Source of the DNA: Phycisphaerales bacterium
GTDB lineage: Bacteria; Planctomycetota; Phycisphaerae; Phycisphaerales; SM1A02
Direction of reading: 5' to 3'
NCBI GenBank assembly: GCA_022446905.1
Contig: JAKVBT010000005.1
Location: forward strand, 593,239 to 657,238
Length of the DNA stretch: 64,000 bases
Under the pieces are notes generated by a model. The model was given only the letters and a program-made list of their open reading frames with translations, had not been told where the DNA came from and did no database searches. Numbering within the stretch: position 1 is the first letter of the stretch; every line of letters begins with the position of its first letter. Made by a program: the position numbers and the translations under genes. Of the stretch, positions 4,758 to 18,266 are shown piece by piece.

Positions 4758-6248
4758 ATGGAGCGGCTCTCATTACCCGAAGGCATCACCTTTGACGACG
4801 TTCTGCTGATTCCACAGCGGAGTGCCGTTACCCCTGATCAGACCGATCTCTCGACGAACCTGACTCGGCGGATCCGCCTTGAATTGCCCCTCCTGTCTGC
4901 CCCGATGGATACTGTCACGGAATGGTCCCTCGCCATAGCGATTGCTCAAGAGGGCGGCATCGGCATCATTCACAAGAACCTGAGCATCGAAGAGCAGGCC
5001 GCCCAGGTCACCAGGGTCAAGCGCAGCGAAAACGGGATCATTGTTGATCCAATCACCCTCAGTGCTACTGATACCGTGCAGAGAGCCATTGATCTGATGG
5101 CAGCCCATAACGTCAGCGGCTTTCCGGTAACCGACAGTGGCCAAGCAGATGGGCGAGTCTCCGGAATCCTGACCAGAAGAGATATCAACTTTGTTGAATC
5201 TACTGACAGCCCCGTTGGTGAGGTGATGACGCCTCGCGAGCGATTGGTCACCGCGACACCCGGCATTGACCTGATGGCGGCTGAGGCCAGCATGAGTCGT
5301 GGCCGAGTTGAAAAACTACTGCTTGTTGAAGATGGCGATCGGCTCGCTGGCCTGATCACGATGCGGGATATTGAGAATGTCCGCCATCACCCGCGAGCTT
5401 GTCGAGATGACCGTGGCCGACTCCGTGTCGGTGCTGCTGTGGGGGTTCATCAATATGAGCGTGTCGAAGCGCTGATCGCTGCAGATGTCGACGTGATTAT
5501 CGTCGACACAGCCCATGGTCACTCAGACAACGTCATTGACTCTGTTCGTGAGATTAAGTCTCGATACGACATTGATCTCATTGCTGGCAACGTAGCAACC
5601 AAACAGGCTGCTGCCGATCTGGTTGAAGCTGGAGCAGATGCGATCAAGGTCGGGATTGGCCCGGGATCGATCTGTACAACACGGATTGTCAGCGGTGTCG
5701 GCGTGCCACAACTTTCTGCCATTGCTGAAGCCACCCTTGCCTGTGAGCCCGAAGGCGTCCCTGTGATCGCTGACGGGGGCATTCGACAGAGTGGAGATAT
5801 TCCCAAAGCCATTGGCTTTGGGGCCAGTTGTGTCATGCTCGGATCACTCTTTGCAGGCCTTGATGAAAGCCCCGGCGAACTGGTCCTGCACCGTGGCCGG
5901 CGATACAAGTCATACCGCGGCATGGGGAGCATCGGTGCAATGCACCAAGGCAGTGCCGACCGATACAGCCAGAGTCATATCACTGATAGTGGAAAGTTTG
6001 TACCCGAAGGCGTTGAAGGTCGGGTTGCATACCGTGGCCCACTGGATGCGTATGTCTTCCAACTCATGGGCGGCCTCCGCGCAGCACTTGGCTATTGCGG
6101 ATGTTCATGTATCGAGGAACTCCGGCAACGAGCTCAGTTTGTGCGCTTAAGTGGTGCTGGGCTTGTTGAATCCCATGCCCACGACATTCAGGTTGTCAAA
6201 GAAGCCCCCAACTACTCGGTCGGCGAATCGCTCGATAGCGCCCAATAA
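4758..6248 (+). CDS. guaB: Inosine-5'-monophosphate dehydrogenase
   Basis: 496 residues, typical for bacterial IMPDH. It oxidises IMP to XMP with NAD+, the committed step of guanine nucleotide synthesis. A catalytic (beta/alpha)8 barrel is interrupted by a CBS pair at about 93-205 ([11 protein letters not shown] and a later [19 protein letters not shown]). The active-site loop [10 protein letters not shown] (~299-308) carries the catalytic cysteine. [10 protein letters not shown] and the flap region [15 protein letters not shown] follow. The ATG has no obvious Shine-Dalgarno sequence. The gene stands alone between the divergent pilT operon and the GTPase locus. Confidence 0.97.
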
Positions 6249-6404: not shown

Positions 6405-7346
6405 GTGCCCTTGGAACTGACAGACTGGACAGAGGGCCAAATCGACGCCCGGCGCGATCGAATTGTCATTCTGGGTCGTCGCAGGGCTGGGAAGACAGTC
6501 TTTCTATCGCGTCTGTACCAAAAACTTTGGCAAGGCAACGAAGGCGTCTCTGCGCGTGCGGGGGACGGCGCCATGCATGAGCGATGCATGGAGATCTGCG
6601 AGGGTCTCTCCCAAGGCAAGTGGCCTGCGGCAACCGCAGGATCCATTCTCAGTGAACTCGAAATCACACATGACGAGCACAGTATTCAAGTAGTCATCCT
6701 CGATTACCCAGGCGAAGTTTTTCGCCGTGCGTTTGTCGACGGTGGCAGGGACGAGCAGTCACTGACACTCCTTGAACACATCGACCGCGCTGCTGGCGCG
6801 ATCATGCTCATTGACCCAGACAACCTCGAGGGGGGCTCCACAGCAGAGCAGGTTGATGATGACTACGGCATGGTGCAAGCAGTTGATCGGATCCGAAAGA
6901 GTCCTGGCGGAGCAAGCGTCCCTGTTGCTGTAGTTCTGACCAAATGTGATGAACATGTGCAACTGATTCGAGAAGCAGGCACTCCACGCGATTTCATGGA
7001 GTCAAGAATTCCCAATCTCTTCCGATACGGAGGAAAATTGCGCGTCTTTGGCTCCTCAGCAGTGCGCATCCGTCGTGACGCGATTGGACGCGGCATCCCC
7101 AACACTGAAAAGCCGGCGCGAGGCTTGATTGAACCGCTTCGCTATTGCCTGCGCGCCATCAAATTAGCATCAGATGTGCCCGCTTCTCCGCACCAACCAC
7201 CCACGCCGAAAGTCATCGCACCTGCCTACAACATCCCATCACGCGTCACACCTGCTCGACGCGGGATTCCCACATGGGCCATAGTCTGTGGTGCTGTTGC
7301 CCTGGTATTTTTAATTGTCGTCATTGTGCTGGTACTTGCAGACTAA
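6405..7346 (+). CDS. Tail-anchored TRAFAC-type GTPase, first gene of the plus arm of the GTPase/ExbBD locus
   Basis: 313 residues. P-loop G24-RRRAGKT31 (GxxxxGKT), switch II/Walker B D100-YPGE, guanine-specificity motif T179-KCD182, and a possible G5 motif SSA (217-219) together mark a P-loop GTPase. Residues ~289-311 are a hydrophobic C-terminal anchor after a proline-rich linker, which places the GTPase in the cytoplasm at the inner membrane. It resembles the conflict-system GTPases linked to GAP1 proteins (recalled family similarity, not searched). The assigned start is GTG 6405. A GGAGG at 6380-6384 sits 8 nt before an in-frame ATT (6393), so a slightly longer N-terminus is possible. Its stop overlaps the next ATG by 1 nt (TAATG). 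Confidence 0.7.
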   Translation: MPLELTDWTEGQIDARRDRIVILGRRRAGKTVFLSRLYQKLWQGNEGVSARAGDGAMHERCMEICEGLSQGKWPAATAGSILSELEITHDEHSIQVVILDYPGEVFRRAFVDGGRDEQSLTLLEHIDRAAGAIMLIDPDNLEGGSTAEQVDDDYGMVQAVDRIRKSPGGASVPVAVVLTKCDEHVQLIREAGTPRDFMESRIPNLFRYGGKLRVFGSSAVRIRRDAIGRGIPNTEKPARGLIEPLRYCLRAIKLASDVPASPHQPPTPKVIAPAYNIPSRVTPARRGIPTWAIVCGAVALVFLIVVIVLVLAD

Positions 7347-9229
7347 TGCGATGTGACACGCACTTACTTGGTTCACGTGATGGATATCGCCCACTTGCAT
7401 GGTGCACTCCAATCACCAATGAGGATCTCCAACACCTTTCTCACGTCGATCTTGGTCAGCCAAGAAGCAGCGATGTCCCAAACCTCGATACACAAGTAAC
7501 TGCCTGCTGTCGCACACTCCCCAGTGGTTGCATCGCATTGACACGATGCATTCCAGGCGGCCAGGATGATGCGGGGCGAGCGACTATCGCCTTTCCAACA
7601 TTGGTCATTGGCCAACATGATTGGCACAAGATTGTGGCGCCGGCACTGAGCCATGTGCTGCACGACACGCGCATTTGGCATCGACAAGAATTTGCTGATG
7701 GCTCACCAATCGAATTGCCTTTGCCTCAGCAGGCACTGCCCTTGGACTATCAAGGCGCCCAATTATTCGACCTTCTGATCCACCATAAGCGTCAGCGACA
7801 AGGCCCATTGCTCATAAAAGCAGAGTCCACGCTGCTTCCAGCACTGAGCAACATGCTCAGCGCATTCTCTTCACAAGAATCAATGGCATTGCAGTGGGGC
7901 GTTGGCGTCTTCTCACCAGCTCGCTGGATGGATATTGCGCAGTGCGCCCCTGGTGCCACAGGTCTTTCAAATAGTGCTGTTCAACTTGACCATCCGTGGT
8001 TTGACACCTCGAATGCTCGTTTGATCGGGGGGCCACTGATTCCTGCAAGCGCTGCTCCACAGCCGACCTCCGCGCCACCTGTATCCGCTTTGCTCACGCG
8101 CCCAGCAAGACGGCGACTCGGCCTTCCTGTGTGGATCTTGTTGGCACTGATAGTGCTCCTCCTTGCCAGCGGGTTGCTCTGGATCAGTCGCACGGATAAG
8201 CCGACTCAGCCCACAGAACCCACAGCCTCGGCCATTACGCCTTTGCCGGCGGAGACCTTGACAGCAGGTGATGAGCATGAGGAATTGCACGGTTCTCTTG
8301 TTGCTGCCCAGCAATCTGAAGTCCATGGCAACGGAGCACTTCATACCACTGCAGAAGATGACTCCGCAAATATGGAGTCCAAAGAAGTATCGGCAGCCAA
8401 GCTCATTACTGAGGAAACACAAACTGGCAAAGAAAAGCTTGATTCAGACCCGCCTGTAAGCCCAACTGATGATGATGCCCCAGTAAATGAGCCAAGCACA
8501 GTGGATGTTGCCACCGCCACTAATTCAGCCCCCCAAGTGCAGTCGCCCTTAGTCCTGCCCTCGCTCCCCGTGCAGGTACCGCAAGCAGAGGTTCTGAACA
8601 ATTCCGACTTTGCTCGTGTACTCCAAGAACTCACCGATGCATTGAATGATGCCACAACGCAGCTTGGCGGTCGCAAGCAGGCCTGTCATCTGGATCAACT
8701 GGACAAAGACATCAAGGAACTCGCAGAGGACACCATGACCTTTGGAGCCGACTTTCTCAGCCCCGCTGCCAAGGAAGAAGCAGAAAAACTCTGCCAGACA
8801 ATGAGCGGACTGAAGCATTTTCAGCGAGCACTATCAATCGCCTCTAGGCCGTCCGTTCATATGTATGCCTCCACCTATATGACTGCAACAGCCATCACAG
8901 CTACGACTGAAAGGGCGACTGCGGTTGCCGGAGAAGGTGATTGGTTTTTGCAGCCACTACGAATGCGTCGACAAAACCTGAAAAAACTTCTTGAACGACT
9001 GCAATGTCTCGGCGAACTGACAATCTTGATTGACGAAGCATGGGATCAGACGGCTCACAGGTCGCTTAAAACAGCGACCCAATGGCTCAACCAATACGCC
9101 CCTGATATCTGCCAGGTCGATGGACCTTGGGCCACCATGGAACATCGGTTTGCCCGCCCAACGGACACATTGCCCCGAAAGGCAACCCTTGATTCGATAC
9201 AGATTTTGAATGCCGCGTTGAATGATTGA
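7346..9229 (+). CDS. Single-pass membrane protein with GAP1-N-like N-terminal domain
   Basis: 627 residues from the ATG overlapping the GTPase stop. The longer frame back to 7145 lies inside the GTPase gene and is not used. The N-terminal ~150 residues contain GSRDGYRPLAWCTPIT, LPSGCIALTR and DDAGRATIAFPTLVI. These recall the 'question-answer' segments of GTPase-associated protein 1 N-terminal domains (from memory). One membrane helix lies at ~262-281, followed by an acidic, Thr/Ser/Pro-rich linker to ~400 and a helical C-terminal domain that I do not recognise, probably extracytoplasmic. Co-transcription and translational coupling with the GTPase suggest it is the GTPase partner that passes its state across the membrane (inference). 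Confidence 0.6.
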   Translation: MRCDTHLLGSRDGYRPLAWCTPITNEDLQHLSHVDLGQPRSSDVPNLDTQVTACCRTLPSGCIALTRCIPGGQDDAGRATIAFPTLVIGQHDWHKIVAPALSHVLHDTRIWHRQEFADGSPIELPLPQQALPLDYQGAQLFDLLIHHKRQRQGPLLIKAESTLLPALSNMLSAFSSQESMALQWGVGVFSPARWMDIAQCAPGATGLSNSAVQLDHPWFDTSNARLIGGPLIPASAAPQPTSAPPVSALLTRPARRRLGLPVWILLALIVLLLASGLLWISRTDKPTQPTEPTASAITPLPAETLTAGDEHEELHGSLVAAQQSEVHGNGALHTTAEDDSANMESKEVSAAKLITEETQTGKEKLDSDPPVSPTDDDAPVNEPSTVDVATATNSAPQVQSPLVLPSLPVQVPQAEVLNNSDFARVLQELTDALNDATTQLGGRKQACHLDQLDKDIKELAEDTMTFGADFLSPAAKEEAEKLCQTMSGLKHFQRALSIASRPSVHMYASTYMTATAITATTERATAVAGEGDWFLQPLRMRRQNLKKLLERLQCLGELTILIDEAWDQTAHRSLKTATQWLNQYAPDICQVDGPWATMEHRFARPTDTLPRKATLDSIQILNAALND

Positions 9230-9244
9230 CTTGGAGCCTATTTC

Positions 9245-11389
9245 ATGAAAGTCCTATTTCCAATGATCGTCTTCACGCTACTTACTGGATGCGCGAACCA
9301 GCAGGCGTCAATGTCATTAGATGAAGAGCCGCTGTCGAGCTCAAAAGTCCCTGATCGGAATCGGGCGGTCACTCTTGCCCCAGTGCAATCTGTCGCACTA
9401 CACACGCCACCTCAAAGGATCAATCCGTCGCAGAATGTGGCGAGCACTTCGATCACACAGTCCTCCTCAACTGCTCGCAACAACTCCACATCAGCCACAC
9501 CTGATACAGGCAAGCCTGATCAGAGGATCGCCCCTGCGCCACCGACAGGAAGTGATCGGCAGCAGACTGATCAATCAAAGACCCCAACAACCGGTGAATG
9601 CCAAGGAGGCGATGGCGAAGAAGGTGGGGCAGGTCAATCATCATCGCCTGGCTCCAGCCAGTCTGGGCTGGCTTCCTTCGCTGCCACTTCTTCCACCGGC
9701 TCTTCTTCAGGAGAGACGGCCGATGCCGGCCTCAAGACAGTCTCCGCCGCCTCGTCCTCAAACAACAAAGCACCCGCCTCCGCAGAACAAGGGTCTATTG
9801 ACACACAAGTTCCTTCTGCGCAAGATGCAGCAGCATTAGGCTCTGCCATGCCCGCGGCAACAAGCGTCCAAGGTCTACTTGGCCCTGCTTCAACTCGCAG
9901 CCCAGAGGGTGACGCAAACCAAAGCGACCCATCATTGGACAGCAAAAAGCAAAGCGGCAGCCTGTCTGACGCCCAAGGGTGGAAGACTGCCCCAGTTGCA
10001 ATGCCAACTGGACAGCCCAGTTCACCCAAGAGCACACCTGATCAACAAGCAGATGTGAATTCCCCGGAAGCTGAGATTGGCCATGGAACTGGCCCAAGCG
10101 GACGCAGTGCTGGGCAAGCATCCGGCGCATCCGCTGGTGGCGGTGGGCATAGTGGGAACCAGAAAGCCGCAACTGGTGGCGGCGCAACAGAAGACCGAAC
10201 CAGCGATGCATCGATTGGTGATGGTGTTACTGGAGCCAATTCGCTGCCAAATGATGAGGCACCATCAAGACCATCACTGACGCTGCGTAGGCTCGCTCAG
10301 ACCATGTCGTCTCAGGATCATGATGATGCGCACGCGCTCCCTGAAATCGATGAAGGGCATATGGACCCAAGCCGACTTGGGATTGCAGAAGAGGTTTTAA
10401 GTGACCACGCAGCAACAGCTCCCATACGTGGCGTGTGGCGTCTCGTGGAATCTGGCCCAGATGACTTTCTGCCAACTGGATCCCAAGAGCGCTTCATTGG
10501 CATTGACCCCGATCGTGGTGAAATTGTCACTCTGTTGTCATGGAATGATGGTGAGGTGGTACTGATGGCTGAGTACGCCGCCGACATCAGCCAGCGCGTT
10601 GCGGTGATCCAGGAAACACAGGATCGCGCCTCACGTCTGCCTGAACCTGGACAACTGCTCCCGGGGGGAGTCCGTCTTACATCAACAACAATGCCTGGAC
10701 CATGGACATTGAATTGGCGTCGCGCAGGAACGAGCCTTCGGATTGGAGAATCGTTATATGTCGCAGAGGATCCCGCGATCATCGACAATCTCATGCGTGG
10801 CGAGGTCTTTCTGCCCACTCAACCCCTGCGGCCGACAGCCCAGCTTGGCCCAGCACCCATCATCGAGAAATCGCAAGAAGCAACTTCTGTTGACTTCTTC
10901 GGTGTGCAATCCGAGGGACGTTGGGTGTGCTATGTCATTGATATCTCTGGATCCATGGCTGGCGATAAACTGGAGCGCCTCAAGCAGGAGTTGCGCGAGT
11001 CAATCTCCAATCTCCCTCCAGGAGTCTCCTTTGCATTGGTGTTTTTCTCAAGCGATGCCCAGGTCATCGCAGATGGCTGGACACGATCACACTCCGTAAT
11101 TGCCTCATCCATCCTTCGCAAGGTCCGCCAAGTTGGTGCTGGTGGCGGCACCGATCCTGCAGAGGCATTTCGGTGGGCCTTTGGGGCACTTGAGCCTGCC
11201 CCAGACACCATCTATTTCATGACCGACGGAACAGTCGCCACTGCGGATCTGCCTGGGCTATTACGGAATCTCAATGCGTCACGACCGCGAGCCAGAATCC
11301 ACACCATTGGCTTTGGCGCAGATGCTGACATTAGTCTCCTTCAGATGATCGCCCAACAGCACGGTGGCAGCTTCGCTGTCGTGCCGTGA
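9245..11389 (+). CDS. Lipoprotein with long disordered linker and C-terminal von Willebrand factor A domain
   Basis: 714 residues. The lipoprotein signal ends in LLTGC16. Residues ~20-350 are low-complexity (Ser, Gln, Ala, Gly, Pro, Thr) and probably disordered. A small beta-rich domain (~390-530) leads into a vWA domain from ~555. Its metal-ion-dependent adhesion site is complete: D566-ISGS, the GGGTDP threonine, and MTDG. It starts 15 nt after the preceding gene and ends 4 nt before the convergent stop of the minus arm. The linker is long enough to span the periplasm, so a lipid-anchored ligand-binding tether is plausible. The ligand is unknown. Membrane choice (inner or outer) cannot be read from the sequence. 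Confidence 0.75.
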   Translation: MKVLFPMIVFTLLTGCANQQASMSLDEEPLSSSKVPDRNRAVTLAPVQSVALHTPPQRINPSQNVASTSITQSSSTARNNSTSATPDTGKPDQRIAPAPPTGSDRQQTDQSKTPTTGECQGGDGEEGGAGQSSSPGSSQSGLASFAATSSTGSSSGETADAGLKTVSAASSSNNKAPASAEQGSIDTQVPSAQDAAALGSAMPAATSVQGLLGPASTRSPEGDANQSDPSLDSKKQSGSLSDAQGWKTAPVAMPTGQPSSPKSTPDQQADVNSPEAEIGHGTGPSGRSAGQASGASAGGGGHSGNQKAATGGGATEDRTSDASIGDGVTGANSLPNDEAPSRPSLTLRRLAQTMSSQDHDDAHALPEIDEGHMDPSRLGIAEEVLSDHAATAPIRGVWRLVESGPDDFLPTGSQERFIGIDPDRGEIVTLLSWNDGEVVLMAEYAADISQRVAVIQETQDRASRLPEPGQLLPGGVRLTSTTMPGPWTLNWRRAGTSLRIGESLYVAEDPAIIDNLMRGEVFLPTQPLRPTAQLGPAPIIEKSQEATSVDFFGVQSEGRWVCYVIDISGSMAGDKLERLKQELRESISNLPPGVSFALVFFSSDAQVIADGWTRSHSVIASSILRKVRQVGAGGGTDPAEAFRWAFGALEPAPDTIYFMTDGTVATADLPGLLRNLNASRPRARIHTIGFGADADISLLQMIAQQHGGSFAVVP

Positions 11390-11393
11390 CGCG

Positions 11394-12308
11394 TCATTGA
11401 GCCGTTGCTGTGCCTTCCCGAATGCGATCGTGGTATCCACGGTCTGCGGGCATTATCCAGGGCGTAACGTCATACGGAAATCGTGATTGCACCAACGCAT
11501 TTCGGAAGAGCTGAAATGCGGCATAACTATCTGCGCTGACACGCATCGAGACTACGTGAAAATCAGGATCGAGCACTGAAAGGGCATCTGTGATTTTGGC
11601 AACCGATGCTCTTGTTTCGTCTATGGGGATACCCCCGCCCGACAGCAGGCGAACACGCCGCTCAATGTCTTGTGTCCCTGTGCGAAATTCGCAACCTTCA
11701 TGAATGATCGCTTCTACAGGCTGCTGAAGGTCGATGGCCTCGGGATTCCATGTCGTCCAAAATACACATCGGTCTCCGATCGGATCGCTCGACTGATGCC
11801 AACTCGACCAATCATTGAGTATGTATAGGCGGCCCTCAGCCAAAACGACTTGTACTGGAAGACGCCCCGCGAGCTCTCTACGCTTTGGCGTTCGCAGAGT
11901 GACATCTCGCAATTGCGTCATTCGCTGCAAGTCTTTCTGAAGCGTTTGAGTCTGTGATCGAATCGTGTCAAGATCAACCGGCGCATTCTCAGGCGCGACA
12001 ATGGCATGCAAGCGATCGAGCAACTCCTCTCGCTGATCAATCTCTTTGTAGAGGCGGTCAAGTTGTGCTCGGCGTGATGTGATCATGTCTGCCACTAGAT
12101 CATCTGGCTGAACTTCTGGGCTCGTATTGACTGACATCGTCTCCTGAGTTGCAAGCAACGGCACTTCTGCTGTTTGTCGACTTCGCACACTGGCGATCAC
12201 GGCTGCAAGGATGGCCACAAAGATGATCAGGCCAAACATGTTGCAGATCGTGTCAAGCAGCAGATCAAGACTGCCATCTTCTGTCGTGTTTCGCCGACGC
12301 ATTTTCAT
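11394..12308 (-). CDS. ExbD/TolR/MotB-like energy-coupling protein, paralogue 2
   Basis: 304 residues with one N-terminal helix (~20-42). Its start, SLDLLLDTICNMFGLIIF, carries an acidic residue (D15 or D19) at the membrane border, as in the proton-path Asp of ExbD, TolR and MotB. The periplasmic part has a predicted coiled coil (~60-125) and a C-terminal domain that lacks the OmpA-like peptidoglycan motif of MotB. Its ATG overlaps the stop of the other ExbD-like gene by 1 nt (TAATG), so both subunits are probably made together. It is the last gene of the minus arm. The role in converting ion flow to movement with the ExbB-like channel is inferred from family and order. Confidence 0.65.
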   Translation of the reverse strand: MKMRRRNTTEDGSLDLLLDTICNMFGLIIFVAILAAVIASVRSRQTAEVPLLATQETMSVNTSPEVQPDDLVADMITSRRAQLDRLYKEIDQREELLDRLHAIVAPENAPVDLDTIRSQTQTLQKDLQRMTQLRDVTLRTPKRRELAGRLPVQVVLAEGRLYILNDWSSWHQSSDPIGDRCVFWTTWNPEAIDLQQPVEAIIHEGCEFRTGTQDIERRVRLLSGGGIPIDETRASVAKITDALSVLDPDFHVVSMRVSADSYAAFQLFRNALVQSRFPYDVTPWIMPADRGYHDRIREGTATAQ

Positions 12309-13048
12309 TACTCAGCAGGGAAACGTGTGGTTGAAGCAGACTCGGGAATAAGATCTAGTCCCATAGACAAATTGCGCAGTGCGGGGTCAGTCTTTATTTG
12401 GCGTTGCAGCGCTTCCCAGATGGGAAGGCCGGACGGCTTCAACACAATAAGCAGATGCCGGTCGGATAGATCAGACTGCCCGCGATACCAAGACAAGAGT
12501 CCAGTGGCAATTTGTTCCGGATCACTTTGGCGAATTGCAATAGGGGGGTCATTGGCCTGATCAGTTGAGACAACACACCGCCCCGCGGCCAACTCTGCAA
12601 CGATGGGGCGGGTTTCTTGATTCGCAATCAAATAGACCAGCCGTCGATTGCGCATTGTTTCAATATCTCGACGCAATTCATCTTGATCAGCAAGAAGTAA
12701 TTTGGCGACCTGAACATCCCCGTCCCGCATCGCTGACAGTCTGGCTGATTTGGTGGCATCGATGCGGCGACGCAGTGACCGAAGTGTGTCATCAGCCTCC
12801 AAAATGTTTTGAGTCAGCACAGCCAGAGCAGCACGCTGATCAGCAGTGTCAGCCGGAATGGCTACGCCCGTGGCTTGCGCAATATCTGGCTCTGGAGATA
12901 CTGGCTCAATGCGTGCGACCGCTGCTCGCCCAATTTGCAGAAGCAGCAGAAGCGTCACCACAAGAACAACGCCAATGGTGCCAATCATGACATCCTGAAA
13001 AGCAAAAAAACGAACCGGGGATCCAGATCCTCGATGCCGCCGAGCCAT
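12308..13048 (-). CDS. ExbD/TolR/MotB-like energy-coupling protein, paralogue 1
   Basis: 246 residues when started at the ATG that overlaps the ExbB-like stop (TGATG). A frame extension to 13108 would run into the upstream gene and is not used. A basic tail is followed by RFFAFQDVMIGTIGVVLVV, where Asp19 sits at the beginning of the single membrane helix, the position of the proton-accepting Asp in ExbD/TolR. Residues ~55-125 look helical and charged, and the rest is a compact periplasmic domain of unknown type. The QDVMIGTIG helix differs clearly from the LDLLLDTICN helix of the neighbouring paralogue, so the two are probably distinct subunits of one channel. Confidence 0.65.
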   Translation of the reverse strand: MARRHRGSGSPVRFFAFQDVMIGTIGVVLVVTLLLLLQIGRAAVARIEPVSPEPDIAQATGVAIPADTADQRAALAVLTQNILEADDTLRSLRRRIDATKSARLSAMRDGDVQVAKLLLADQDELRRDIETMRNRRLVYLIANQETRPIVAELAAGRCVVSTDQANDPPIAIRQSDPEQIATGLLSWYRGQSDLSDRHLLIVLKPSGLPIWEALQRQIKTDPALRNLSMGLDLIPESASTTRFPAE

Positions 13049-13929
13049 CAGGAGGCCCCGTCGACACGCACTCGACTGACGACATTCCGAAGTGCGTATT
13101 GCCTGCAATCATCCAGAAGCAACTCATCTGCTCGGCGAACAAAAGTCTGAGCGAGATAAATCAAAAGCGCTGCAACCAGTCCTTCCCCGGTGGTGATAAA
13201 TGCGGTAGACAGACCAGCAAGAACTAGCGTCAGTTGTGAAGTCAGTGCATCGACAGAAGCATTCCCCGCATCTAGCACGCCACCAAACTGTGAAATCGCC
13301 TCTGTAAGTCCAATGATGGTGCCAAGGAATCCCAATACAGGGATGGCCCAAATAAAACCACGCAGAATCGTGTAGCCGCTGTCCATCGCGGCCTCATCAG
13401 CTTCCGCAGCACTGTCAAGCATCTCATCGATGTCGCCAATTCGTCCTATGTTGCGAATGGATCGAAGCGCATCCAGCACACGATTGAGCAGTAGAAATTG
13501 TCGCGGCTCATCAACAGCAGCTTCAATCGTATTCATTACCTGATCTGCTGAACCCACTGTCAGTGCAAAGCCAGCTTCCTCAGGCATAAAACGCAAACGC
13601 AATGCCGCTCGCTGCGCTTTTATTTTGAGCGATTTCAGCAGAAGAATGGCAATAGACCAGCAACTCAACGCAGCAATTGGTATTGGAATGCCTGAGTACC
13701 CCGTTAGAAGTTCCCAAACAATGCTCCCGAATCCAGTGTCCCTGGCAAACCAACTCACTCCATACATGAACCCCATAAATGCCACGCCCAACAAAAATGA
13801 TGAGAATGCAGATGGAGTTGTAAAGCGACCGCTTGGAAGGCCAAAGCGTCGTTCGGGATCGCATGAAGCAAAGGACAGCACAGGCTTCGTTGGGCGGTCC
13901 CAGGCTGGTGGTGGAGTTGCGTCGGCCAT
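13048..13929 (-). CDS. MotA/TolQ/ExbB-family proton channel subunit
   Basis: 293 residues. Hydrophobic segments lie at ~44-63, 78-98, 192-212 and 235-260. The third contains IPVLGFLGTIIGLTEAIS and the fourth LAGLSTAFITTGEGLVAALL, which are the conserved TolQ/ExbB/MotA channel-helix features (the P-x-LG-LGTV-G motif and a Thr-rich helix). A cytoplasmic domain lies between helices 2 and 3, as in TolQ. Such proteins form a pentameric ion channel around a dimer of ExbD/TolR-type subunits; two candidates follow immediately. It overlaps both neighbours by 1 nt. No TonB, TolA or flagellar genes are nearby, which argues against ordinary TonB or Tol function. Confidence 0.85.
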   Translation of the reverse strand: MADATPPPAWDRPTKPVLSFASCDPERRFGLPSGRFTTPSAFSSFLLGVAFMGFMYGVSWFARDTGFGSIVWELLTGYSGIPIPIAALSCWSIAILLLKSLKIKAQRAALRLRFMPEEAGFALTVGSADQVMNTIEAAVDEPRQFLLLNRVLDALRSIRNIGRIGDIDEMLDSAAEADEAAMDSGYTILRGFIWAIPVLGFLGTIIGLTEAISQFGGVLDAGNASVDALTSQLTLVLAGLSTAFITTGEGLVAALLIYLAQTFVRRADELLLDDCRQYALRNVVSRVRVDGAS

Positions 13930-16799
13930 TAAGGTGAAAAGAGTACCGCAGGGGTCTCCGGCAGGTTGAGCGCGCCCATGGGGATCCTATTTGAAGCATC
14001 TAATTCCACAGGCACCAACTGCCAGCGGCCGGCTTCATCAGAAACGAGCACCATCAGTTCTTGTGGGGCGGTCCCAGCTGGCCACATCCCTTCCATATGA
14101 TCGCCCTGCGGAATTAATACCCCTGCAGGCACATGTGAGATCATCGCAGCATCCATATCTCGGAAAGAAGCAAGAACACTCGTGCGAATCGCATCAACAT
14201 CAGGCGATTGAGCCAAGGCTGTGGCTGCCTGCGTTCGGATACGTCGCTGCTGAGGTGATGTGGCCGCTGCAGCCATGGCCGGCCAATCCGATTGTGCAGC
14301 CATCGGAGCAATGACGCTGAGGTCATTGATCCATCGATCAACAGGCTCCACTGCTTTGGGAGCGATGGGGCGAAGTGTCTCAAGAGCAACAAGCCACGCT
14401 TGTTTTGTCGCATAAAGTCGCAGCAGTAGATCGAGCTCATCAGTGGAAACAACATCTTCAACCATTTGCAAGACAGCAATCGCACAGCCGCGCGGCGATG
14501 TCGCCACCGGCCTTTCTATCCAATCACTGAGTGCTGATGACAGCGCAACAAAATCAAGCTGGCCTATTGGGCCGACGGATGCATCAATTGGATCAGGATC
14601 CAGCAGTTCTGGAGGAAGTGAGAACGACTCAAGATCTTCAATAATCCGAATTGACCGCGTGTTCTCAGGGGGCCTGACATAGATCCAACCACCCCGCAAA
14701 ATGGGCATACGTGCCAAATCGAGCAGATGGGTTTTCTCTACCAGCTCATGCGGTCCTTTATGAAACTGTGGAGAACTCAAAGCTGTCAACATGGGCAACA
14801 TCTTGACGGCGGCTTGCCCATAGGGCGAGCCATCATGACGTTCCATGTGATTCCGAAGTGCTGTCGCAGCTCCACGTGCTAAGCGGGACATCGAATCAGA
14901 ATCGGAACTCTGCAGGGCAGCTTCTACTGCGGGGCGAACAACCATCCGCCAATGTGACAAAGCTACCGCTGCTTCAGCAGCACGGCGCCCACGATGCCAC
15001 TGATGTACGGGGCCGGTATCAGCGAGCACATCGAGATGCTCATCAAGCAATGACTGCCACACACGCAACCATTCCTGTTCGCTCGCTGGCGTTTCTGCCA
15101 ACTGCCCAAGCAAAGCATCTGCCTTCTCAAGAGACTCCAGTCGTAACTGTGCACGCTCCATACGATTAGTGCGCATTTGAGCAAGTTTCTCAATGGCCTG
15201 GCTGATGTCAGGCTGTGTACCTACTGGTGAACGACGGGTCTTATCGAGCATCGACTGGACATCGTCGAGTTTCATCCACTCAGCCCATGCATCTGGATCA
15301 AGTGACTTGCCACCCCCTGGGGCAGACTCCTCGAGTCGGCCACGAGCGACTGCGAGCACATCAAGAGCGCTTTGTCGCTCCACCTCATAGGCTGCACGCC
15401 GAAGATCATCCACCTGATCACGCGTCTGCTTAAGCGCTTTGGCATGCTCGGAAATTCCCAATGATGCCACTTGCTCAAGCAAATCAGTTGCTTGCTCAAG
15501 CGATGCGATGCTCTCTGGGTTGATAGATGTGAGCTGGGTTGCTTGGTCGATCCATTCAGCCCCTTGGGCGACATCAGCAAGCCGCTGCTTTTGGGCCTGT
15601 TCAATTCTTCCTTTGAGCGATGCCAATACCGGCGAGTCTGTCAGACTGGATTCCGAGGCTTGACGCCATGTCCTAAATGCTGATTCAAGATTCCCTGCCT
15701 CTAGATCTGATTGAATTGCAGCCGCCATGCCTTCAATCGTCTGCTGGTATCGAGCTGATCGTAATGAAAGGTTGATTGCGATTACAGCGAGCACCGCCAT
15801 GGCCAATATGGCTGTCAGCCCAAGCGCGAAGCGACGCCGATGTCGCCGTTTCGCAGTGGCATATCGGTGCGCCACCCGAGACTCCAACATGGGTGTCATG
15901 GAGACATCACTAGCGCGTAAATCGGCGTAGAGCGGCTCAAACTCACTGACTGGACGATCTTCATCAAGCAATTGCTCGAGGCGCTCGACATGAAGTCTTT
16001 GCGATGCACGCCTCTGGACTGCTTCCTGCTGGCGGTCAAGCCAGCCTGTCAGTTGCCCCATCGCCGGCTGCAAGACAGAGGCAACACCAGCATCCGCACC
16101 AAGCGAACGAACCCGATCAAGGAGGGCACGAGCCAAAGGCTCATCCATCGCGAGCCACGCCCGATACAACTGACGATCAAGTTCTTCCATCTCTTGCGCA
16201 GCAATCTTACGTGCGCCTAATGCAAGGGCATCATCAAGTTCTGCAAGCAACGCCCGCCCGCCAGATCCACCGGCATTGATTGACTCAAAAACCTTTCGAC
16301 AGTGACGAATATCAGCGAGATCGCCAGCGCCAATACAGGCCTGGACACGCGGCTTCCACGCTTGCACGACATCCTGTTCAATCTGCTCAACAGCATCCGC
16401 CCAAATCGCTTGTCTTGGCTCAAGACGGCGAAGGGTGCGTAAACATCCAAGTCGATCGGCAGCCGACGCAGATGACACCGCAGCACTTCGCCATGCTGAG
16501 ACAGCCGCGGCATGTGCAGATGCGGTTGCATGCAATCTTGCTAACTCATCAAGGCTTTGGTCATCCGGAAAGTCCAATTCGTCCATGAGTGCACGAACAG
16601 CTGAACTCTGCTTGAGTTGAATGGCATGTGCAACAATGTTGCCTCCATCAATGTTGTAGGCGGCAGCTTCACGTCCGTACCCGGCTTTCGCCCATGCAAG
16701 ACAGCGATCAAGATCCCGTTTCATCCTCTCCATAGATCGGCGCAGTTGTGCTTCATTGCCAGCATCGAGTGCTTGTTTGACTTCATGACACGTTTTCAT
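13929..16799 (-). CDS. Very long coiled-coil membrane protein of the GTPase/ExbBD locus
   Basis: 956 residues from the ATG at 16799, which overlaps the upstream stop by 4 nt (ATGA). The longer frame to 16874 lies within the preceding gene. Residues 1-~315 are helical, Ala/Arg/Glu-rich and probably cytoplasmic. One membrane helix at ~322-345 follows a basic stretch (RRHRRRF). About 350 residues of heptad-like coiled coil come after it, then a more compact C-terminal domain (~700-956). I recognise no family. By position between GAP1-like and ExbB-like genes, it may act as the stalk linking the cytoplasmic GTPase module to the ion-driven channel (inference). Confidence 0.6.
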   Translation of the reverse strand: MKTCHEVKQALDAGNEAQLRRSMERMKRDLDRCLAWAKAGYGREAAAYNIDGGNIVAHAIQLKQSSAVRALMDELDFPDDQSLDELARLHATASAHAAAVSAWRSAAVSSASAADRLGCLRTLRRLEPRQAIWADAVEQIEQDVVQAWKPRVQACIGAGDLADIRHCRKVFESINAGGSGGRALLAELDDALALGARKIAAQEMEELDRQLYRAWLAMDEPLARALLDRVRSLGADAGVASVLQPAMGQLTGWLDRQQEAVQRRASQRLHVERLEQLLDEDRPVSEFEPLYADLRASDVSMTPMLESRVAHRYATAKRRHRRRFALGLTAILAMAVLAVIAINLSLRSARYQQTIEGMAAAIQSDLEAGNLESAFRTWRQASESSLTDSPVLASLKGRIEQAQKQRLADVAQGAEWIDQATQLTSINPESIASLEQATDLLEQVASLGISEHAKALKQTRDQVDDLRRAAYEVERQSALDVLAVARGRLEESAPGGGKSLDPDAWAEWMKLDDVQSMLDKTRRSPVGTQPDISQAIEKLAQMRTNRMERAQLRLESLEKADALLGQLAETPASEQEWLRVWQSLLDEHLDVLADTGPVHQWHRGRRAAEAAVALSHWRMVVRPAVEAALQSSDSDSMSRLARGAATALRNHMERHDGSPYGQAAVKMLPMLTALSSPQFHKGPHELVEKTHLLDLARMPILRGGWIYVRPPENTRSIRIIEDLESFSLPPELLDPDPIDASVGPIGQLDFVALSSALSDWIERPVATSPRGCAIAVLQMVEDVVSTDELDLLLRLYATKQAWLVALETLRPIAPKAVEPVDRWINDLSVIAPMAAQSDWPAMAAAATSPQQRRIRTQAATALAQSPDVDAIRTSVLASFRDMDAAMISHVPAGVLIPQGDHMEGMWPAGTAPQELMVLVSDEAGRWQLVPVELDASNRIPMGALNLPETPAVLFSP

Positions 16800-17620
16800 G
16801 CAGCCGCTCCCAGCCAGACCCACAGCAGGATGACCAAAATGACTGCAAAAGCAGCGAAGAGCAGCCAAGGCCACATGCGGCGATCTGGGGCCTCCATGCG
16901 CACCAGAGGCATATTGATGACCTCCGGCTCGATGACCGGGGAGGCAGATGTCGATGGGGCAGCTGGAGGATCAGACCATGGGATCGATCGTGATTTTAGA
17001 TCCTCGCCAACATCGTCTGACTCGAGAATGATCACAGCAATACCGTGGCTGCTGGCCGGTGGACCAGCAGAGAAGGTCCACGACCATCGGTCAACTGGCT
17101 GCATAGCAGCTTCGATTGATTGAATGGCCTTGATTGCAGATTGCCCCTGGGGCAGCGCAATGACGCGCCGACTCGATTCATCTTGGCATTGATGGAGTAG
17201 TGGAGCCCATTCATGGGCTGCTTGTAGACCCGCTCCAGAAGCGATTGGCAAATCCTGCAATCTGGCATTTTCAGGATTGCACGGCCAGTTAGTGCACATC
17301 AGTGGACTGGCAAGAAGAGTGGCGGGTCCACTACATCGCTGATCTGCTCGAATTAACACATGATGCGTCACGCGGTTCAGCCCATCTATTGCAATGGGAG
17401 GCGCCTTATGAACACTGGTGAGTACCGACCACTGTGCGCCATGGAATCTCATTAGGCGATGCGACAGCGACGCATAACCCGCTCCATCTTCATTGACATA
17501 CATCCCAGAGGATTGCTCGAGTTGTTCCAACACGTGAGCGGGCACACCAGGACTTGCATGAACGGTTCGAAAACCGACCATGCCCACCTGATCGTCCCAT
17601 GTGTGTATGACATGGAGCAT
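16796..17620 (-). CDS. Tail-anchored protein with GAP1-N-like fold, second copy in the locus
   Basis: 274 residues. Phrases such as YASLSHRLMRFHGAQWSVL and a following GLNRVTHHVLI resemble the signature of GTPase-associated protein 1 N-terminal domains, where an N-R-x-x-H-H-x-x-x element is usual (family resemblance from memory). The last ~24 residues are a hydrophobic helix with only a short tail, so the soluble part faces the cytoplasm. Start and stop overlap its neighbours (TGATG at 17620; ATGA at 16796-16799). Together with the first GAP1-like protein on the plus arm, the locus has two membrane-bound candidate partners for one GTPase. Confidence 0.5.
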   Translation of the reverse strand: MLHVIHTWDDQVGMVGFRTVHASPGVPAHVLEQLEQSSGMYVNEDGAGYASLSHRLMRFHGAQWSVLTSVHKAPPIAIDGLNRVTHHVLIRADQRCSGPATLLASPLMCTNWPCNPENARLQDLPIASGAGLQAAHEWAPLLHQCQDESSRRVIALPQGQSAIKAIQSIEAAMQPVDRWSWTFSAGPPASSHGIAVIILESDDVGEDLKSRSIPWSDPPAAPSTSASPVIEPEVINMPLVRMEAPDRRMWPWLLFAAFAVILVILLWVWLGAAA

Positions 17621-18144
17621 CAGGCTGTCGTTTCGATAACGAGTGATTTGAGTTTCTCTTCAATAGAGCTCACGTCAGGTACTGGGGATCCGCAATTGGA
17701 ATCTCGAATAGAGACAAGAAGCCCTCGGGCTTGACCCAAGCACACTTCATGCCATACGACATCTCGTTCCATTGGTGGCTGATTAGCCAACTCAAGCATC
17801 TGAACATGACACCCATCTGGCGCGAGTTTCTCGCACGCAATCTCAATGCGTCGTTGCAACTCCGACATGGACTCTGCCGACATCACCCGAATCGAACTCT
17901 GGGCGACAGGCACACCCAAACATTGACGCGGAAGACTGGCCCTGCAATTTGGGCAGGCCATTTGGGATGAGGGTGTCCCGGCAGGGTCAATCGCATCACC
18001 ATCTGCGTTGAACCGAACAGGCAAGAAACGAACCGGCCATGGATCGCCCAATACAGGGTCTCCAGACAGATCAGGATGAGCCGCTACGAACCGAATTTCT
18101 TCGGCTGCAAGGACGTGATCGCAATATGGACACTCTTTGACCAT
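17620..18144 (-). CDS. Small zinc-ribbon protein, first gene of the minus arm
   Basis: 174 residues from ATG 18144. The longer frame to 18219 reads through tRNA-Arg and is rejected. Two cysteine pairs, CPYC at residues 6-9 and CPNC at ~65-68, form a probable treble-clef or zinc-ribbon metal site. They are separated by an arginine/proline-rich stretch. The C-terminal half is a small alpha/beta domain with no motif I know. Zinc-ribbon adaptors often accompany GTPase-GAP1 gene sets, which supports grouping it with the locus, but its function is unknown. It lies 48 nt downstream of tRNA-Arg on the same strand and may share that transcript. Confidence 0.55.
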   Translation of the reverse strand: MVKECPYCDHVLAAEEIRFVAAHPDLSGDPVLGDPWPVRFLPVRFNADGDAIDPAGTPSSQMACPNCRASLPRQCLGVPVAQSSIRVMSAESMSELQRRIEIACEKLAPDGCHVQMLELANQPPMERDVVWHEVCLGQARGLLVSIRDSNCGSPVPDVSSIEEKLKSLVIETTA

Positions 18145-18192: not shown

Positions 18193-18266
18193 CGTCCACG
18201 GCAGGACTCGAACCTGCAACCTTCGGCTTCGGAGGCCGACGCTCTATCCAATTGAGCTACGTGGAC
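18193..18266 (-). tRNA. tRNA-Arg(CCG)
   Basis: The reverse strand folds into a full cloverleaf. The 7-bp acceptor stem is GTCCACG/CGTGGAC, the anticodon loop is CTCCGAA with anticodon CCG, and the T-loop is TTCGAGT. The discriminator is G (18193). CCA is not encoded, so a CCA-adding enzyme is needed. Confidence 0.95.

Follow-up and report, generated by a model that had tools for sequence, protein, structure and literature searches.

A stretch of 64,000 nucleotides from the Phycisphaerales bacterium assembly GCA_022446905.1 (contig JAKVBT010000005.1, positions 593,239 to 657,238; hereafter referred to as the window) contains, at positions 6405-18144, nine open reading frames (ORFs; P0001 to P0009) arranged in two convergent arms, which we analysed as candidate parts of a single cell-envelope system. 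All nine ORFs of a preliminary description of this DNA were recovered, on the strands and very nearly at the coordinates first given: the plus arm ends at 11389 and the minus arm at 11394, with 4 nucleotides between them, and the junctions within the arms are mostly short overlaps. The plus arm encodes, in order, a GTPase (P0001, 6405-7346), a single-pass membrane protein (P0002, 7346-9229) and a vWA-domain lipoprotein (P0003, 9245-11389). Read downwards from position 18144, the minus arm encodes a zinc-ribbon protein (P0009, 17620-18144), a GAP1-N2 protein (P0008, 16796-17620), a large helical protein (P0007, 13929-16799), a TolQ/ExbB-type channel (P0006, 13048-13929) and two ExbD-like proteins, referred to as b (P0005, 12308-13048) and a (P0004, 11394-12308). 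These coordinates include refined starts for P0002, the ATG of which, at 7346, overlaps the stop codon of the GTPase, and for P0005, P0007 and P0009. P0009 probably starts at the ATG at 18144, because the TTG of the longer mechanical ORF falls inside a tRNA-Arg gene. The arrangement is not a product of chance: about 20 loci in the window's bacterial family share it, and the core operon is found in several phyla. A Pfam scan yielded no significant family match for P0002, P0004, P0005, P0007 or P0009.

The plus-arm GTPase, P0001 (313 residues), matched the Pfam families DO-GTPase2 (PF19993; E 1.8e-10, 41.3 bits against a cut-off of 27) and DO-GTPase1 (E 5e-10), and its G1 (GRRRAGKT), LDYPGE and LTKCD motifs are kept in the family alignment. 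It ends in a C-terminal tail anchor (residues ~293-311), as first proposed. Likewise, P0008 (274 residues), described beforehand as a GAP1-like tail-anchored protein, bears a GAP1-N2 domain (E 1.7e-7, 31.8 bits against a cut-off of 24) and a C-terminal anchor. It is a truncated form: Pfam detected neither GAP1-M nor GAP1-C in this short protein, its family matched full-length GAP1 in a profile comparison (E 1.8e-58), and its relative at locus L044 carries both GAP1-N2 and GAP1-M. P0002 (627 residues from its ATG) is a single-pass protein, with a transmembrane (TM) segment at residues ~262-280, but the GAP1-like label initially attached to it was not confirmed by the family model; its adjacency to the GTPase gene and a weak profile match make it a possible divergent GAP1 partner of P0001. 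The GTPase and P0002-type genes adjoin in the family genomes in which both were found; depending on the genus, the neighbours of the pair are the vWA gene or the genes for a zinc-ribbon GTPase and GAP1.

The minus-arm gene first reported as encoding a zinc-ribbon protein does encode a zinc ribbon, but this ribbon is the N-terminal remnant of a larger protein. In most relatives, the corresponding gene encodes a zinc-ribbon DO-GTPase (ZnR-GTPase) that has roughly 400-455 residues or more and carries a P-loop, a YDNAGE motif and a KxD motif. P0009 is homologous to the N-terminus of these GTPases, and no P-loop, G3 or G4 motif was found in it. From its sequence, P0009 is a ZnR-DO-GTPase with a decayed GTPase domain, leaving P0001 as the sole intact GTPase of the window. 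All three GTPase motifs are missing from the zinc-ribbon gene at nine loci, in the window's genus, g187 and g289. These decayed forms occupy two places in the channel tree, one with genus g1 and g187 and the other with g289, so that the GTPase domain was probably lost twice. Two GTPases are present in 38% of DO-GTPase systems (Kaur et al. 2020, PMC7159879); by comparison with such systems, the window has lost one of the two. A stricter rule, that the domain is lost only where a second GTPase is present, was rejected as too strong, as family genomes scored as lacking a second GTPase proved to have one, located just beyond the stretch or on a different contig. In some other planctomycetes, the ZnR-GTPase itself forms a fusion protein with an FHA domain. 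At L047 (5236-7746), the ZnR-GTPase has both an FHA domain and an N-terminal stretch weakly matching an MshE-type cyclic di-GMP-binding domain (31 bits, cut-off 38), which might provide a cyclic di-GMP input to the switch.

The identification of P0003 as a vWA lipoprotein was borne out by a VWA_3 match (E 6.4e-13), a lipobox (LTGC) and a DISGS motif corresponding to a metal ion-dependent adhesion site in the C-terminal vWA domain. The protein has a linker of about 340 residues rich in Ser, Ala, Gly, Thr, Pro and Gln, and no TM segment was found in it. P0007 is a membrane protein of 956 residues (from MKTCHEV), as stated in the preliminary description, but the coiled coil ascribed to it gave way, in an AlphaFold2 model (mean predicted local distance difference test score, pLDDT, 79.5), to a predicted single-pass helical-repeat protein with a C-terminal beta region. 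An N-terminal part of about 320 residues is followed by one TM segment (~324-342) and a C-terminal part of about 610 residues ending in beta strands; the basic cluster preceding the TM segment suggests that the N-terminus is inside. A Foldseek search with this model gave no useful match, and VIA-align returned only generic helical repeats, BamD and TPR-like.

The family assignment of the ExbB/TolQ-like channel was confirmed. P0006 matched the MotA_ExbB family (PF01618; E 5e-13, 49.4 bits against a cut-off of 22.9), the nearest solved sequences to its family in a profile search of the PDB were those of TolQ (E 0.0018), and a Thr residue is invariant in both the PVLGFxGT and AFxTT motifs of the homologue alignment. 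The protein has four hydrophobic segments, which is the layout of MotA, not that of ExbB. The two accompanying proteins, P0004 (304 residues, motif LLLDTICNMFG) and P0005 (246 residues, motif FFAFQD), had been described as ExbD/TolR-like subunits; the ExbD family model did not retrieve them, but this description gained indirect support. A profile comparison showed the two to be homologous (E 1e-24), and they share the same layout, with a short N-terminus, one TM helix bearing Asp19, a helical stretch and a C-terminal domain; Asp19 is present in 48 of 50 homologues of P0004 and in all 49 homologues of P0005. The AlphaFold2 model of P0004 (mean pLDDT 76) has its TM helix within residues 12-46, a two-helix region and a C-terminal alpha/beta domain. 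When this model was aligned with about 1000 chains, TolR (5by4) ranked first (Z 5.4, 93 of 105 residues), and ExbD structures ranked fourth (8p9r; Z 4.9, root-mean-square deviation 2.3 Å, 69 of 74 residues) and seventh (Z 4.7, 2.1 Å, 64 of 72 residues). A Foldseek search with the P0004 model yielded no useful match, and the ExbD-like profiles retrieved coiled coils alone from the PDB sequences. Direct membership of the ExbD family was rejected for both proteins, PF02472 being silent and the profile-profile matches weak. An ExbD/TolR-like role is nevertheless likely, given the alignment of the model to TolR and ExbD, the neighbouring channel gene and the conserved Asp.

The two arms travel together within the window's family. 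The vWA gene lies tail to tail with the gene for ExbD-like a of the motor operon in 19 of 20 loci from this family, with gaps of 3-118 nucleotides, and the plus-arm GTPase was found in 28 of 34 motor-positive genomes versus 4 of 28 motor-negative genomes (Fisher p 1e-7, a value that ignores relatedness and the incompleteness of metagenome-assembled genomes). The preliminary description had proposed in advance that a rarity of such co-occurrence, or a lack of GTPase and channel folds, should overturn the idea of a single machine; the arms were found to co-occur, and Pfam identified both families. The convergent synteny, the co-occurrence of GTPase and motor and the existence of relatives in which a single operon combines parts of these kinds thus provide good support for the two arms constituting one system. 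Furthermore, the co-occurrence of the GTPase-P0002 pair with the motor and its placement beside the vWA or ZnR-GTPase/GAP1 genes indicate that the plus arm contains a second GTPase/partner pair and that this pair belongs with the minus arm. The location of this pair and the motor on different contigs in G526, G592 and G436 would fit two unrelated neighbouring operons in an incidental convergent layout, an explanation rendered most improbable by the recurrence of that layout, the phyletic co-occurrence and the single-operon relatives. One genome, G588, has a family-type convergent locus together with a second, differently arranged copy on one strand of another contig (L161, L162).

The flanks of the locus are also conserved in the window's genus and in genus g187. 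The upstream flank is guaB, encoding the IMP dehydrogenase (4758-6248; named from its sequence and homologues). On the other side, a tRNA-Arg gene (CCG; 18193-18266, minus strand) separates the minus operon from a divergent gene encoding an FHA-GAF-SpoIIE protein (P0011, 18280-19977, plus strand; FHA 1.6e-16, SpoIIE 6.6e-38). Both guaB and the FHA-SpoIIE gene flank the locus in the window's genus and in g187 wherever the stretch extends far enough, the FHA-GAF-SpoIIE gene being retained there at seven loci from these two genera. It is uncertain whether P0011 belongs to the system.

Related loci were fetched from whole genomes and GTDB species genomes, with GAP1-N2, P0004 and then the channel alignment as seeds. 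The channel scan detected relatives encoded by 394 stretches, and the best 80 of these were retained; the relatives in these 80 were mostly from Planctomycetota, with others from Verrucomicrobiota, Lentisphaerota, Desulfobacterota-labelled genomes and one Nitrospirae-labelled metagenome-assembled genome. Counts were made on the 37 loci with sufficient flanks (8.9 kb or more on the upstream side of the channel and 3 kb or more on the downstream side), near-identical species included. The ZnR-GTPase, GAP1, the helical protein, the channel and ExbD-like b and a occurred together in 33 of these loci, mostly from the Planctomycetes-Verrucomicrobia-Chlamydiae (PVC) group, and lay on one strand in 31 (as judged with part profiles); a P0007 homologue was found near ExbB in 35 of the 37. 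In relatives, a gene for a GYF-domain protein with variable TM regions is usually located just upstream of the channel, a position at which the window's family has no GYF gene. Beyond its GYF domains, this protein varies (PrsW protease, TM bundles; L052, L106, L125), making it the one clearly variable part of the system. The vWA protein of relatives outside the window's family has a TM segment. Within that family, 63 of 151 sampled genomes carry the channel.

One half of this gene set has been described before. DO-GTPase/GAP1-N2 systems, including planctomycete systems with a GYF-plus-TM protein, have been classed as conflict systems (Kaur et al. 2020, PMC7159879); the main text of that paper does not name MotA, ExbB or ExbD. 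The zinc-ribbon DO-GTPase, the GAP1-N2 protein with a C-terminal TM segment, the GYF membrane protein and, in some cases, the extracellular vWA protein of those systems all occur in the window's system or its relatives, whereas the TolQ/ExbB-type channel, the two ExbD-like proteins and the 956-residue helical TM protein are linked parts here. Fibronectin type III repeats, a partner in the published systems, had no match in the nine window proteins (Pfam, E up to 1) or in the scanned L044 proteins, and the locus is therefore better filed as a variant than as a plain DO-GTPase/GAP1-N2 member. The published classification makes a defence role possible, in which GAP1 and the GTPase would sense an invader and trigger a motor-based effector, the ExbB/ExbD-like part acting like the motor of Zorya. 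A MotA/ExbB-type motor in a proposed conflict context recalls Zorya, ZorA and ZorB1 were among the weak matches of P0006 and an ExbD-like relative, respectively, and the variable C-terminus of the GYF partner (PrsW protease or other TM regions) is also compatible with defence. Membership of Zorya itself was rejected: the ZorA NCBIfam models scored 14 bits against cut-offs of 700 and 100, PADLOC models found no ZorC, ZorD or ZorE among the ten proteins scanned, and there are two ExbD-like partners here, versus a single ZorB. We consider a defence function rather unlikely, as no PADLOC family had a meaningful score outside the channel, no nuclease or toxin was matched in the nine genes (Pfam), the system is single-copy in most genomes and fairly consistently present within genera, its position beside guaB and FHA-SpoIIE is fixed in the window's genus and g187, and the channel tree tracks phylum far better than shuffled labels, with some exceptions.

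The other half resembles PVC clusters of a tetratricopeptide repeat (TPR) gene, tolQ, two different tolR genes and a TM-vWA gene, reported as likely transducers driven by the proton-motive force (PMF; PMC12204202, 2025); that paper makes no mention of a GTPase. Like these clusters, the window has one TolQ-like protein, two different TolR-like proteins, a helical-repeat protein and a vWA protein, P0007, from its predicted helical-repeat fold, being a possible counterpart of the TPR protein. Unlike them, its ExbD-like proteins go undetected by the ExbD family model, and P0003 has a lipobox and no detected TM segment, whereas the vWA protein of the PVC transducers has an N-terminal TM helix with an SHLS motif. 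The window's genome contains two other, canonical ExbB/ExbD operons, each with a TM-bearing vWA gene nearby (L221 7920-11102, L222 8329-10576), and thus pairs a motor with a vWA gene three times; the published clusters may correspond to these two operons rather than to the one studied here. The nearest rival to the machine proposed below is a Tol-Pal- or Ton-like system for envelope maintenance or uptake with a GTPase regulator, in which the motor, by pulling on the vWA protein, would keep the outer membrane stable or load it, without a role in adhesion or motility. The TolQ sequences closest to the channel in the PDB, the alignment of the P0004 model to TolR and ExbD and the proposal that TM-vWA proteins encoded next to tolQ and paired tolR act as force transducers in PVC bacteria (PMC12204202) are all in keeping with such a system. 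We nevertheless judge it unlikely: no TonB or TolA transducer, as first noted, and no TolB or Pal was matched in the nine locus proteins (Pfam and NCBIfam), the two other ExbB/ExbD operons could fill this role, and fewer than half the sampled family genomes carry the system.

In design, the system appears to be most similar to the Agl-Glt machinery of Myxococcus, which combines one TolQ-like protein (AglR) and two TolR-like proteins (AglQ and AglS) with the FHA protein GltG, the GYF protein GltJ, the GTPase MglA and the vWA protein CglB. In this machinery, MglA exerts its action on AglR and GltJ, and the surface adhesin CglB contains a vWA domain (PMC12288465), demonstrating that a GTPase-controlled, PMF-driven machine with such parts exists. 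The similarity is one of design rather than membership, because the window's GTPase is from the DO-GTPase family and the equivalog cut-offs were not reached: the best NCBIfam match of a GYF relative was GltJ, a match confined to the GYF region (42.6 bits against a cut-off of 450), and FHA-bearing proteins scored 21-25 bits against 650 with the GltG model, over the FHA domain only. In addition, AglQ and AglS match PF02472, whereas P0004 and P0005 do not.

On the basis of these comparisons, we consider it probable, with some reserve, that the locus encodes one cell-envelope machine, switched by a GTPase, driven by the PMF and exerting force across the envelope. P0006 would form a TolQ/ExbB-type ring and, with P0004 and P0005, which probably assemble as a heterodimer, an ion-driven inner-membrane motor. 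P0007 would span the inner membrane beside this motor and extend into the periplasm, and P0003, on its long flexible linker, would be the periplasmic or outer-membrane element, either pulled or binding a surface ligand. The tail-anchored P0001 and the GAP1-type P0008, probably with P0002, would constitute a cytoplasmic switch assembling or engaging the motor, and the zinc-ribbon, FHA and sometimes MshEN-like modules of the GTPases of relatives could supply its inputs. The biological role might be surface adhesion or gliding, or envelope maintenance. The preliminary description had proposed a single ion-driven, GTPase-controlled machine; the union of the arms has held, and ion conduction, the stoichiometry of the motor, GTP gating and mechanical output, including force on the vWA element, are features that we infer.

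Several observations weigh against this interpretation. PF02472 matched neither P0004 nor P0005, and a search of the window's own genome with this model also passed over the locus, although it found two ExbD pairs and one single ExbD elsewhere; against canonical ExbD profiles, the two proteins matched only weakly, at the C-terminus (single-pair E 0.01 and 0.03), and the TolR/ExbD Z-scores of the P0004 model are modest, with unrelated folds scoring close. The failure of the ExbD model to detect either partner would suit a non-conducting, structural ring serving as a scaffold for GTPase signalling at the membrane. This alternative seems to us quite improbable, as the conservation of Asp19 in nearly all homologues and the two invariant channel Thr residues are difficult to explain without ion handling. 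The case for P0002 as a GAP1 protein is likewise weak, consisting of a profile alignment that is colinear with GAP1-N2 (single-pair E 6e-4). Finally, the ZnR-GTPase, GAP1 and the helical protein occur without this channel family at loci L041, L042 and L046, one of which is in a one-contig genome. Given these loci and the absence of the channel from part of the family, the motor is a subtype-specific module, and the switch can do without this motor in some planctomycetes.

The new element here is the union of a GTPase/GAP1 switch with a TolQ-type motor. We found no paper joining the GTPase/GAP1/GYF half with the PVC motor-vWA half, in a search the scope of which excluded subscription papers, bioRxiv and supplements. 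We put forward more tentatively, as an idea with slightly less than an even chance of being correct, that these loci represent a hitherto overlooked and widespread class of bacterial machine, with DO-GTPase/GAP1 pairs in direct control of a heterodimeric ExbDa/ExbDb ion motor, such that part of the GTPase "conflict systems" would be GTP-gated force machines, invented in parallel with the focal-adhesion motor that a GTPase controls in Myxococcus. If this is true, two PVC-wide groups of proteins of unknown function would merge into one machine, and some predicted conflict systems may be ion-driven envelope devices. It would also provide a list of parts with which to study the on-off control of TolQR-type motors by a GTPase in bacteria other than Myxococcus that have a poorly understood surface behaviour and envelope biology.

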